From the NCBI GenBank assembly GCA_024734495.1, contig JALMQS010000099.1, positions 98,869,321 to 98,933,320 of the forward strand: a stretch of DNA of 64,000 nucleotides, read 5' to 3'. The translations under genes were made by a program, and so were the position numbers. Source of the DNA: Forficula auricularia (taxonomy: Eukaryota > Arthropoda > Insecta > Dermaptera > Forficulidae). The first letter of the stretch is position 1. The number at the start of each line of letters is the position of its first letter. Shown in pieces: positions 48,607 to 55,286 of this stretch. Below the pieces are notes generated by a model. That model was not told the origin of the DNA, ran no database searches, and saw only the letters and a list, made by a program, of their open reading frames with translations.

Positions 48607-48694
48607 GCATGAAGTACCCGTGACCTCCGACCCCATTACCATCGTGCACATGGACGAGGATATTGTCGTTGTTAACAAACCCGCCTCGATCCCA
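48607..48694 (+). CDS. RPUSD2: RPUSD2-like pseudouridine synthase, alternative exon C
   Basis: 88 nt: G completing the Arg codon, then 29 codons from HEVPVTSDPI to NKPASIP. The (E/D)DEDIVVVNKPAS block is RluA motif I, the strand and turn that pack beside the catalytic loop. The acceptor is TGTGTTTTCAG and the donor is GTAAGT at 48695. The exon ends in phase 0, matching exon E. It shares 17 of 29 residues with exon D and has the more canonical NKPAS form. Splicing C to D would give ACA TGA, an immediate stop, so C and D cannot be used together. Confidence 0.92.
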
Positions 48695-50131
48695 GTAAGT
48701 TGGCCTTAAGACTGCCTTTACTTCTGGTTCTTACTTCACACTTGACATTGAACATGCACCTTATCACCCAAGCAAAGGGAGTTGCACCTGTAGCTAATTT
48801 CACACTAGATTAATTATATAAAAATTTAGCCAACAAAATATCTTATACTACTATTAAAAATCAAAATTTATTTTCGTTTATCATCAATTTACCATATATT
48901 CCATTTTATAATAAAAAGGAATCTATCTACTTAACATCACTGGTTTGATTTTTTTTTTCATAATGATAAATCATATCTATGCATTTTTTTTAATATGTAC
49001 TAATATTTAAGAGAGACACTTTAATAGTCTAAAATGCGTTTTATAATTTCTTTTACATTTAATTTCAATTTTACATTGTTTTCTCATCAAATTAATTAAA
49101 AGGTTATAAGATTTCAAATAATTATAGCAGCAAAGTACTATTTAAACGGTTCGGATTTGTCCGAAGTACTTTGTAACGTCATCAGAATTTACCTATAAGC
49201 ATTTAAAGACAACGATATTATTTTAATCATTGGAAAAAATTACCTCTCTTAATGGGCTTACAAAAATCAATACCATGATGTCAAAACTAATTTGTTTCAC
49301 ATTACCTGATTATATTTCAAATTTATTTAGTTCAAAGCTTATTTAACAAAAAAATAACTGGCTAAAAATCTTTTTTCTAATAGTTATTTTTTCTCAGTTC
49401 ATAAAAATATTTTTTTCTATTTTTGATTCTGACTCTTTTAAAAAAAACATCCCCTGAATTATTGAATTTTAATTATTATTCATTCAATGAATTTATTATT
49501 TATTTCCTAGGGGAAAAGATTCAAAAAATATAAAATTTTCATTATGAAGTTCATGTTGAATGTACATAGATATTTATAAGGGTATTATATGTATAAATAT
49601 ATATTAGGTAATATAATATTATATAACATTTTACATATTTTTGCGGTAAACTTCGCTGAGTATTTTGATTTGTTCAGAAAAATGTTTTGTTTTGTTTTTT
49701 GACCAGATTAATTAAATTTTAAATTTTAATAAATACCTACTATTGGGATCAAGTAAACCTCATTTTTTCTGATACTGTTTTCAAATATTTGAACAAAATA
49801 TTTATTTATATAAAAAATTTTATATCATTAAAAAATGAATAATAAATAAATATATAAAACATACATAAATCAAAATTGACAATTTTTTATTATCATAGAA
49901 TGTTCAAATCAACTTCAACTGTGTAGTTTCAAAATTCCGAAAAAATGTATTACGTTTTATTATTATTATTAATGGGGATTTAAAGGCGCCTCGACTGCTA
50001 AGATCATTAGCGCCTTCTTGCATTTTTATTTCGAAGTTTATTTTAGTTTCAAGAACTGAGAGAAGACTAACTGAGAAAAATATTATTTTTTATTTTATTT
50101 TTTTTTTCAATATCATTTAATGATTTTTTCA

Positions 50132-50781
50132 ATTACACTATTCAACAAAAAATTTTCCCTTAAACCTAATAATGGATTCCATTAGAGTTTTATACGCTGA
50201 TTATCATGTAATATCCCGATTTTTTACAATACGTCAGAATTTTGAGATATTATTGTTCAAAATGACGAAAAAGTCCATTGTGACCTATTTTCAAGTCCCA
50301 TTAAATATTAAACAGCAATATTTGAAATAAAAATATTTTATTGACATAATAGAAAGCCGCTTCCTCTTTGATGTTCAAATTACCACTTGTATTTAGGTCA
50401 ATTAGAACTCGAGTTATAACTAAAAAACTAAAACTGCGTGATTATAAAGGATTAAAAACTTAGATAAAAACATAAGGTCTTAGTATTTTATCTATAACTC
50501 GAGTTCTGGTTGAGCTAAATTCAAGTGGTGATTTGAAAATCAAAGAGGAAGATGTTTTCTATTACGTCAACAAAATATTTTGATTTCAAATATTGCTGTT
50601 TAATATTTAATGAGACTCGAAAATAGGCCGAAATGGCCATTTTTCCTCATTTTGATCGATAACATCTGACGTTTTGTAAAAAATCGGGAAATCGCATGAT
50701 AATCAGCGTATAAAACTACTAGAATCCATTGTTGGGTTTAAGGGGGAAATTTTTGTTTAATTTTTGTCGAGCAGTGTTATT
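50132..50781. mobile_element. Palindromic foldback element, copy 2
   Basis: Ends ATTACACTATTCAACAAAAA and TTTTTGTCGAGCAGTGTTAT. Arms of about 300 bases fold on each other around about 50455. It is diverged from 13855-14511 but collinear with it. Confidence 0.8.
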
Positions 50782-52754
50782 ATGAACTAGTGTATTTTGT
50801 AATCAGATCATGTCGGTATTTATTCAAAATTGAATTATTTATCTAGTTTTTTTTAATTCTTTTCTTTTATTACATATAATAAAATGTTTAATTAAAAATA
50901 CAAATTTTTTTGTCTTGAATAATATTGAAAAATAAAAAAGTTGTATCCGATTTAAAATTAAAAATCCTCGTCTTATTAACACAAACGGAGATAACCGGAA
51001 GCATTATGTGAACACGAACTCGTTCACATCTTTAATCAAATACAACTTTTTTATTTTTTAATTTTCCAATACAAAAAATTGTTTGTTTTTTTTAATAAGC
51101 TAGTTATATATATTAAAATTGAAAATGGTAAAATTACTGAATCATTTCAAAAAATATATTCATAGAAATTTGTGGATAAGTACGTCATGATCAAACAAAG
51201 GGCTTTTGTTTTCATCTCCAAATTCCAAGAAATTTAATCCACCCACCTTAATACTCTTGAATAATATAAACTCAACCTTTTTATTAAATTGACTCTATTT
51301 TAAAATGAAACACTCTGAAATTAAAAAAAAAAATTAATTATATAAATTTATTTTATTCTTTAGAGGTGCTCTTTAGGAAAGTTAATGCTTATGGTGTGAA
51401 GTCAGCTGAAGGCTAAATTCCCTTTGCAATGGGGTATCACAAAGGAAAAGCTTTCCGCTTCTTTGGACAAACCTGCACTGTTTCTTCTTCTTCTTCTTCA
51501 TTTTCTCACTCATTTCCTTTTTCTCCTCCTTAACTCCATCAAAAACCATCTCCACCCAAACCCTTAGCCTCTTCTTTCCTCTTTATCTTCTCTCTTATTA
51601 ACTTGACATTCGTTTCAATTTAAATCCATTTCTCTCTTTCTTCTTCCTCCACTTTTGCGTGTCCCTGTTGCTATCCTCGTCTTATTATTTGATAAGAAAT
51701 CGCATACAATGAACAATAAGAACGAGTTTGCCAAGTTGCCATTTGTGATGCCGTTATTCAAACTTGAATCAATAGCATTCTTGAACAAATACAAAATCGT
51801 TGTTCAACATTCGCTGTTTTGCTTTTGCCCAAATCCACTCTTCCTCTACCGGCATTCTGTGAGGTGATTTGTTTCATTATTCAAATATTTATCTAAGATC
51901 AACTTAAAATTTAGAATTCAAGAGAAATGTAATTAAATTAGACATAGTTACCTTATCTAAAGGTAAAATTAATATAATTCGTAACTATATCGTATCACAT
52001 CTTATTTATTCAGCGAACAAACCGCTCAACTGTTGCGTTTGCTAAACATGGCCAATATTTCCTTAGAACTGACATTTAACTTCCTAAATATTATGGGGTT
52101 GAATTAAAATCTAATAACTTTCAAGATCTAAGAATATTCTAGGAATATTCCCTTTTCTAAAAGTCACTGCTTCTGTTTATATTTGTGGCTAGAGAATGAA
52201 GGGCAGATTTTTGTAAAATACTAAGAACTGAGTATTATAATAAATATCATTGTGTAAAAATATAGCTTATTTTTAAATGATTTTCTATTAAAGTAATTAA
52301 GATTTATATCCTATTTCACTCAGCAATTAAGTCGGATTTTTATGTGGAATATTATTAGTTTTATTTCTCATTTATGTACTGTCCGAGGATTACTACGTAT
52401 GCACTCTATCTAAAAGAAGGCAGATTGTAGTAAAGAGCGCTTCTCTAATAGTCCACCGATTGTCCATAATTAAGAACTAAAACAATCCAATTAATAATTA
52501 ACGAATAATATTTAGCAGGCTCACTGGTAGTGTACTAAAAATGTTTAGGTTGGGTTCGATTCTCTGATATTTTACAGTCAAAATTTGTTTCCATATATTA
52601 TTATTAAAAGGACTCCTCTCACAAAAGGTAGTGCCCTTTTCAAACAAAATCTCTTGTTCTATTCAGGGCTTTTACTAAGTTCTGCTCAGATTACTCTAAC
52701 TTTCTCATGAATTCTCCCACCACACACTCTTTCTAGCCAGCAGGTTATTTTAAT

Positions 52755-55045: not shown

Positions 55046-55057
55046 TCCCCACTAGCC
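55046..55057 (+). promoter_or_regulatory. Candidate selector for exon D
   Basis: TCCCCACTAGCC lies 141 bases before exon D, in a GC-rich island (55030-55198). It pairs with docking bases 41420-41431 at 11 of 12 positions (one A-C mismatch, two G-U). Its shape (TCCC..A.TA.CC) resembles the exon C selector. An overlapping segment, GGGAAATTCCC at 55039-55049, is also exactly complementary to 41398-41408. Function is inferred. Confidence 0.45.
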
Positions 55058-55198
55058 GTAGTTCTCTTACGGGGACACTGAAAGAGATAGCATTCCTAAT
55101 AGGAGACTAATAGAAATAGTAGGAGCTGTCTGGTTAGGGATGTTCGCATGCGCTAAACCGGCGAGAGGACCGCTAACACGGCGGCTATTGGTTTGCAG

Positions 55199-55286
55199 AC
55201 ATGAGACCCCCGTCCTTGCCAAACCCATCAAGTTAATACATGTAGATGAGGACATTGTTGTGCTGGACAAACCATGTTCTTTGCCG
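55199..55286 (+). CDS. RPUSD2: RPUSD2-like pseudouridine synthase, alternative exon D
   Basis: 88 nt, the same length and phases as exon C: A completing Arg (AGA), then 29 codons from HETPVLAKPI to DKPCSLP. It replaces motif I with DEDIVVLDKPCS. Relative to exon C, Asn-Lys-Pro-Ala becomes Asp-Lys-Pro-Cys, and the preceding SDPITIV becomes AKPIKLI. The acceptor is GGTTTGCAG (pyrimidine tract poor) and the donor is GTGAGT at 55287. The frame is intact and similarity to C is at protein level (17/29), so it looks like a maintained exon and not a dead copy. It is the smaller-evidence member of the pair, and transcript support is the deciding test. Confidence 0.87.

Follow-up and report, generated by a model that had tools for sequence, protein, structure and literature searches.

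Our results suggest that transcripts of RPUSD2, a predicted RluA-family pseudouridine synthase gene of Forficula auricularia, very probably contain exactly one of two similar exons, C or D, and that one gene thereby gives rise to two enzyme isoforms. The middle part of this gene lies on the plus strand of a 64,000-nucleotide stretch of contig JALMQS010000099.1 (positions 98,869,321 to 98,933,320), which we call the window. That C and D exclude each other in F. auricularia is an inference from the sequence of the window and from related proteins. Papers are cited by their PMC numbers.

The exon pair and its gene

Exons C and D have the same length and are separated by a long intron (Table 1). 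The introns on either side are similarly long, with 7363 nt between B and C and 5770 nt between D and E. Each exon completes an arginine codon of which two bases come from exon B, and each is left in phase 0. Exon B ends in AG, which codes for arginine with the G of exon C (AG+G) as well as with the A of exon D (AG+A). With a slash for each exon border, the surroundings read ttttcag/GCAT...CCCA/gtaagt for C and tttgcag/ACAT...GCCG/gtgagt for D. The encoded segments agree at 17 of the 29 residues that lie within the exons (18/30 with the split arginine). Coordinates, lengths, phases, splice sites, identity and the spacing of about 6.5 kb are all as a preliminary description of this DNA had given them.

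A search of the window with C finds D at E = 4e-11, followed by a runner-up at E = 0.9, and between B and E there is no third copy of the cassette above chance. The codons of C and D agree at 19, 26 and 8 of 30 first, second and third positions, respectively, where exon B supplies the initial two bases of codon 1. By sequence, this is the pattern of an old duplication under protein selection with saturated third positions.

The reading frame is open when either exon alone connects A and B with E. If full-length C and D are both included, the junction reads ACA TGA and translation stops; if both are skipped, a stop follows after 22 codons. The preliminary description had predicted these stops and had concluded that nothing other than inclusion of one of the two exons reads through. 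For full-length exons this is correct. It may be too strict in general, as an AG inside D (GAG/ACC) would permit an in-frame product of C and a shortened D. In length, homology, phase, splice sites, frame and their position as neighbouring internal exons, C and D have the sequence features of mutually exclusive exons.

Table 1. Features of the window (positions counted from its first letter)
Feature	Positions	Strand	Description
Exon A	35064..35185	+	encodes LRKVYPYYFTFTTFTKGRWVGEKILDVFAREFRAHPAEEY; ends TAT/gtaagt, phase 0
Exon B	41143..41243	+	encodes ERCIKAGTLTVNYEKVDIDYRLKHNDLLANVVH + AG; donor gtagac
Exon C	48607..48694	+	88 nt; cassette C, (R)HEVPVTSDPITIVHMDEDIVVVNKPASIP
C-D intron	48695..55198	+	6504 nt; contains long local hairpin repeats
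Exon D	55199..55286	+	88 nt; cassette D, (R)HETPVLAKPIKLIHVDEDIVVLDKPCSLP
Exon E (constant)	61057..61277	+	VHPCGRYRHN loop, catalytic HRLD motif, KEYVCRV
Non-LTR retrotransposon	10603-13668	+	1021-residue open frame; endonuclease (PF03372) and reverse transcriptase (PF00078)
MITE-like hairpins	50186-50717, 52747-53212, 56086-56275		long local hairpins in the C-D and D-E introns; arms 86-93% complementary
Minisatellite	30360-30524, 56617-56786		one 20-bp unit on opposite strands, about 8 copies each

The catalytic domain PF00849 scores 78.2 bits in the isoform with C (ABCE) and 73.9 bits in the isoform with D (ABDE), at a curated cut-off of 26.8. XXHRLD is the catalytic motif of RluA (PMC8910892), and the HRLD in exon E is common to both isoforms. 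Conversion of uridine to pseudouridine is predicted here from family membership; for the fly RluA proteins, too, this activity has been called unproven (PMC7718762). Cricket protein P0006 also matches exons of the contig beyond the window, in the order of the protein. One lies just upstream and four lie downstream, and the farthest of the four corresponds to the C-terminus of P0006. Among the proteins listed in our searches, those closest in A, B and E are from Timema (143/147 residues; the product of exon A matches Timema bartmani P0010 at every residue), followed by grasshopper, katydid, stick-insect, termite and cricket proteins (141-142/147) and by some flies and a spittlebug (140).

The two cassettes in other arthropods

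Three protein searches returned 1236, 45 and 199 matches. The listings covered 120, 45 and 120 of them, with 260 distinct proteins in all, to which the following counts refer. Cassettes were typed by their similarity to C and D of the window, with at least 14/30 residues required and ties given to C. By this rule 187 proteins carry a single C, 64 a single D and six carry both, while one (from a fish) has two C-type cassettes and two have neither. The preliminary description had proposed to look for the cassettes in other insects, and both types indeed recur there and in crustaceans.

Key evidence for alternative use of the two exons comes from nine insect species: Spodoptera frugiperda, Anopheles coluzzii, Cydia fagiglandana, C. 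splendana, C. strobilella, Leguminivora, Anticarsia, Ochlerotatus camptorhynchus and Armigeres. Each has annotated C and D isoforms of equal length that are identical everywhere beyond the 30 residues of the cassette. In the same way, a D row from a cricket agrees with an unnamed C row at 240/240 flanking residues, and so does a D row of Penaeus vannamei with a C row of P. chinensis. These isoform pairs, together with the apparently ancient duplication described below, support the mutually exclusive pair in an RPUSD2/RluA-family gene that the preliminary description had postulated.

Each cassette is conserved as a type. Cassette C of the window is identical to that of Zootermopsis (30/30). Cassette D matches the cricket D cassette at 27/30 residues and beetle D cassettes at 25-29/30, with 29/30 in Onthophagus and Anoplophora. 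At positions 4, 7, 23, 24, 27 and 29 the 39 distinct D cassettes have T, L, L, D, C and L (in 39, 39, 39, 39, 37 and 38 of 39). The commonest states at the same positions of the 55 distinct C cassettes are V, T, V, N, A and I (52, 49, 52, 39, 43 and 51 of 55).

One could argue that D is an unused relic of exon duplication in F. auricularia. Such a relic would fit with the 28 hymenopteran and 34 brachyceran-fly rows listed, in none of which a D cassette was seen (62 rows in all; Table 2), so that D has perhaps been lost in some lineages. However, the frame of D is open, its splice sites are intact, and its residues are kept relative to cricket and beetles even though third codon positions between C and D are saturated. 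We consider a relic the least probable of all the explanations weighed here. The tallies nevertheless suggest that D was lost in Hymenoptera and Brachycera. A missing D is weak evidence, because the protein database is clustered, so that a D isoform may be represented there by a C protein.

Table 2. Cassette types by group (groups assigned by hand)
Group	C	D	Other
Hymenoptera	27	0	1 neither
Brachyceran flies	34	0	
Lower Diptera	25	4	
Lepidoptera	30	17	2 both
Coleoptera	1	6	3 both
Hemiptera	7	6	
Thrips	0	2	
Orthoptera	2	1	
Phasmatodea	4	0	
Blattodea	1	0	
Mayfly	0	1	
Neuroptera	1	0	
Collembola	1	0	1 both
Malacostraca	2	5	
Barnacle	1	0	
Copepoda	1	4	1 neither
Daphnia	3	0	
Fish	1	0	
Unnamed rows (65)	47	18	

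When did the second cassette arise? A tree of the flanking residues of 44 chosen proteins groups them by lineage, with C and D intermixed in insects and in Malacostraca; it contains 11 label changes and four sets of identical rows that carry both labels (three from insects, one from two shrimps). In a tree of 86 distinct cassettes, by contrast, a single branch parts C from D (98/96; 98% of 200 bootstrap trees), although this tree rests on 30 columns, its bootstrap is unsettled, and the split is partly built in because the labels were set by similarity to the cassettes of the window, all of which detracts from our interpretation. Because flanks group by lineage while cassettes group by type, the trees are best read as one duplication within the gene that predates the parting of insects and Malacostraca, without later homogenisation.

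The duplication may reach further. In Daphnia (P0241-P0243), the proteins of D. magna and D. pulex agree at 239/240 flanking residues but have only 16/30 cassette residues in common. The cassette of D. pulex takes a basal position among the D cassettes (82/75, on a long branch). These two cassettes may represent a rapidly evolving form of the exon pair. Since both were scored as C, D counts in Daphnia may be too low. Copepods appear to carry C and D on two separate genes. The eight copepod D rows in the tree of flanks (three named, five unnamed) form a clade of their own (100/99), apart from the C row of the salmon louse. Copepod proteins with D include Tigriopus P0232, Eurytemora P0124 and Lepeophtheirus salmonis P0240. 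Within L. salmonis, the C protein (P0228) and the D protein P0240 differ at 41/240 flanking positions. The copepod genes would then be an ancestral exon pair partitioned between duplicates.

A separate observation concerns Timema tahoe P0244, an RPUSD2-like protein of 896 aa with zinc-finger domains. Its cassette matches the Timema C form at 25/30 residues and its flanks match other Timema at 201/240, on a long branch. It is perhaps a paralogue or a foreign sequence.

Could D of F. auricularia belong to a second, partial or tandem copy of the gene, or be an alternative first exon, instead of being the partner of C? The apparent separation of the two forms in copepods is a precedent for the former, and the models P0134-P0138, which begin at or just before D, are what one would expect of the latter. 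Yet exons A, B and E each occur once in the window. A search of the genome (1.06 Gb) with P0006 yielded 12 matches, among which no second RPUSD2 locus was found: two lie outside the exons of this gene, one far upstream on the same contig (E = 0.05, query residues 41-75) and one elsewhere in the genome (E = 2.7). A second gene copy as the source of D was therefore rejected. In the nine species, moreover, both types occur as full-length isoforms whose N-termini are identical. Hence, we regard an origin of D from another copy or from a first exon as very improbable.

Several observations weigh against exclusive use of C and D in a single gene. The isoform records are gene models of other annotators, not reads. 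Six of the 260 listed proteins have both cassettes in one model. In five of these, 5 to 40 extra residues lie between the cassettes; in the sixth, from Orchesella, C is joined to D after the RHE codons, just as the AG at GAG/ACC in D of the window would allow. The models P0134-P0138 start at D or at most 31 residues before it, and D may be an alternative first exon in some species. In the Nezara model P0122, D comes after a stretch with a reverse transcriptase domain. Transcript support for D in insects consists of predicted isoform records and two UniProt records without contigs (P0007 and P0032), which we take to be derived from transcriptomes. Finally, by hand count 32 of the 35 rows that come from the source "lgn" alone are C, and the three D rows all have copepod-type cassettes. 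We assume that "lgn" denotes assemblies of public reads. Rows with both lgn and another source are evenly divided (n = 8), four C and four D (shrimp P0224 and three unnamed).

Choice of exon and possible consequences for the enzyme

How would a single exon be chosen? Transcripts with both exons or with neither carry early stops and would be removed by nonsense-mediated decay, and because of these stops the frame would enforce inclusion of one of the two full-length exons. Exon C is probably the default, because it has the better acceptor tract (12/17 pyrimidines, compared with 9/17 for D) and accounts for most database rows. The simplest scheme is then a regulator that would promote D against C. 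The donor of D speaks against a simple picture of a weak D exon, as it is superior for pairing with U1 (-11.0 kcal/mol, compared with -5.6 kcal/mol for C). The common donor of exon B (gtagac) departs from the consensus.

Two known mechanisms of exclusion do not fit. Steric hindrance is at odds with the length of the C-D intron, and incompatibility of U12 and U2 splice sites with the donors, which are unlike the U12 consensus. Competing intronic RNA pairing was examined in the 500-nt flanks by 16 comparisons (14 of complementarity, two direct) with 100 resamplings. No convincing match was found in these flanks: the best two of the 14 were reached in 1/100 and 2/100 resamplings, and both are low-complexity, A/T-rich matches upstream of E. 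A direct comparison of the sequences downstream of C and of D was reached in 4/100 resamplings. None of five duplex energies from these flanks was below those of 60 shuffles each. Among the inverted repeats of the introns, the longest form local hairpins.

It is also conceivable that the choice between C and D mainly serves as an off switch, in which joint inclusion or double skipping leads to decay and differences between the proteins are secondary. The exon length of 88 nt is not divisible by three, each of the two wrong products ends early, and such lengths are common: 377 of 629 human clusters (60%) have lengths not divisible by three (PMC5740500). A pure poison exon, however, need not hold an open, conserved frame of 30 residues with type-specific states, and D alone is productive. 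This explanation seems improbable to us.

If two proteins are made, where do they differ? In the Spodoptera proteins the cassette covers residues 194-223, and the Pfam catalytic domain begins inside it, at residue 212 or 213. The swap would thus cover the linker before the catalytic domain and the hairpin of motif I, and spare the catalytic residues. The preliminary description had called the cassettes active-site-proximal. This is apt insofar as they encode motif I and what precedes the catalytic domain, and inapt insofar as HRLD lies in the constant exon E.

For the Spodoptera isoforms, AlphaFold models based on alignments of 30 rows each place beta strands in the cassette at 206-208 and 213-216 in D and at 205-209 and 213-218 in C. 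The models are weak, that of D weakest (mean pLDDT 48.3, compared with 54.9 for C), which reduces the weight that they can bear in favour of our interpretation; we do not read this gap in confidence as a difference between the two forms. A PDB search with the C model found RluD, RluA and RluC, with a best E of 1.4e-14 and target TM-scores of 0.40-0.64.

In RluB, the RNA is pinned by an S4 domain on a flexible linker. The forefinger loop, which follows beta-1, contacts the minor groove of the RNA in RluB, RluF and RluA (PMC3919597). For fly RluA-1 and RluA-2, similarity to S4 has been stated as data not shown (PMC7718762). By analogy with the fly proteins, exon B encodes a putative S4-like stretch; Pfam finds no S4 domain in the isoforms of the window, which is a further point on the opposing side. 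The swap would hence replace the linker after the S4-like part and the motif I hairpin that leads into the RNA-contacting loop. Catalysis, located in constant exons, would be kept and docking of RNA altered. Because the cassette would set the linker and the base of the loop, and could alter docking without touching the chemistry, different RNA targets for the C and D forms would be, in our view, the most likely consequence by analogy with these relatives.

Alternatively, both forms share their RNA targets and the cassette tunes folding stability, temperature range or contact with a partner. The cassette covers motif I, the fully conserved residues of which have been called non-catalytic (PMC7718762), and several of the type-specific differences are conservative (V/L, N/D, A/C, I/L). 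Nevertheless, opposed states kept across insects and malacostracans are more than generic tuning seems to need, and in relatives this stretch leads into a loop that contacts RNA. Shared targets are possible, if doubtful. A more far-reaching account, plausible rather than probable, is that the two synthases have different RNA targets, that the second cassette arose once in the stem of Pancrustacea, that D was lost in Hymenoptera and in brachyceran flies including Drosophila, and that it acquired its own gene in copepods.

The window contains other repeats besides the hairpins in the introns (Table 1). An open frame resembling that at 50124-50330 recurs, by eye, at 13811-14077 and 14235-14507. 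Searches of the window gave no tRNA, and no Rfam family at gathering score.

Known systems and what the pair could teach

In the literature searched (which leaves aside supplementary tables) we found no description of the cassette pair, and no paper that pairs "mutually exclusive" with RluA-1 or RluA-2. Databases of gene models already contain both isoforms, apparently unremarked. As far as we have seen, what is new is the recognition of the pair, its age and its distribution.

The criteria of Kassiopeia for mutually exclusive exons are similar length, homology, splice sites and frame, and its arthropods are twelve Drosophila species (PMC3923563). The pair could have been missed there because its arthropods are all Drosophila and all 16 listed Drosophila rows carry C. 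C and D resemble the pairs of Kassiopeia and of a human survey in equal length, homology, frame, compatible sites and position as adjacent internal exons (PMC3923563; PMC5740500), and they share with 60% of the human clusters a length not divisible by three. In that survey reads joining both exons were seen in 83 of the 377 clusters with such lengths (PMC5740500). Unlike in those collections, the host gene here is an RNA-modifying enzyme. In Dscam1 and 14-3-3 zeta, insect exons are chosen by competing intronic RNA pairings (PMC3923563). C and D likewise form an arthropod cluster with a one-of-n choice, but there are two exons, the introns are 5.8-7.4 kb long and the 500-nt flanks show no convincing pairing.

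With human RPUSD2 and bacterial RluA, RluC and RluD the gene shares the PF00849 domain, the HRLD motif and the RluA fold. We know of no cassette pair in any of these proteins. The single fish row listed has a repeated domain with C-like cassettes only.

In flies this gene probably corresponds to RluA-1, because it is matched by Glossina rows that bear the name "rluA pseudouridine synthase 1" and because the cassette of D. sechellia P0180 lies at residue 366, close to where the published RluA-1 model starts (365; PMC7718762). D. melanogaster proteins and RluA-2 are absent from the recovered rows. The guess that RluA-1 carries D was dropped, as drosophilid rows with RluA-1-like numbering carry C. 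Loss of RluA-1 leads to hypersensitive nociception, while the neighbouring RluA-2 is ubiquitous (PMC7718762); an RluA-2 mutant lacks 423 pseudouridine sites (PMC9997552).

Genetic work on this gene has relied on Drosophila, for which all 16 proteins listed have C, so that the pair may lie in a blind spot. It is still largely an open question how stand-alone pseudouridine synthases in animals pick their RNAs. The cassette is a natural swap that alters 12 of 30 residues and leaves the rest of the protein as it is; apparently kept since the parting of insects and malacostracans, it offers a ready-made experiment on this question. If the split into two genes in copepods is true, then the same switch can be studied both as splicing and as gene duplication.

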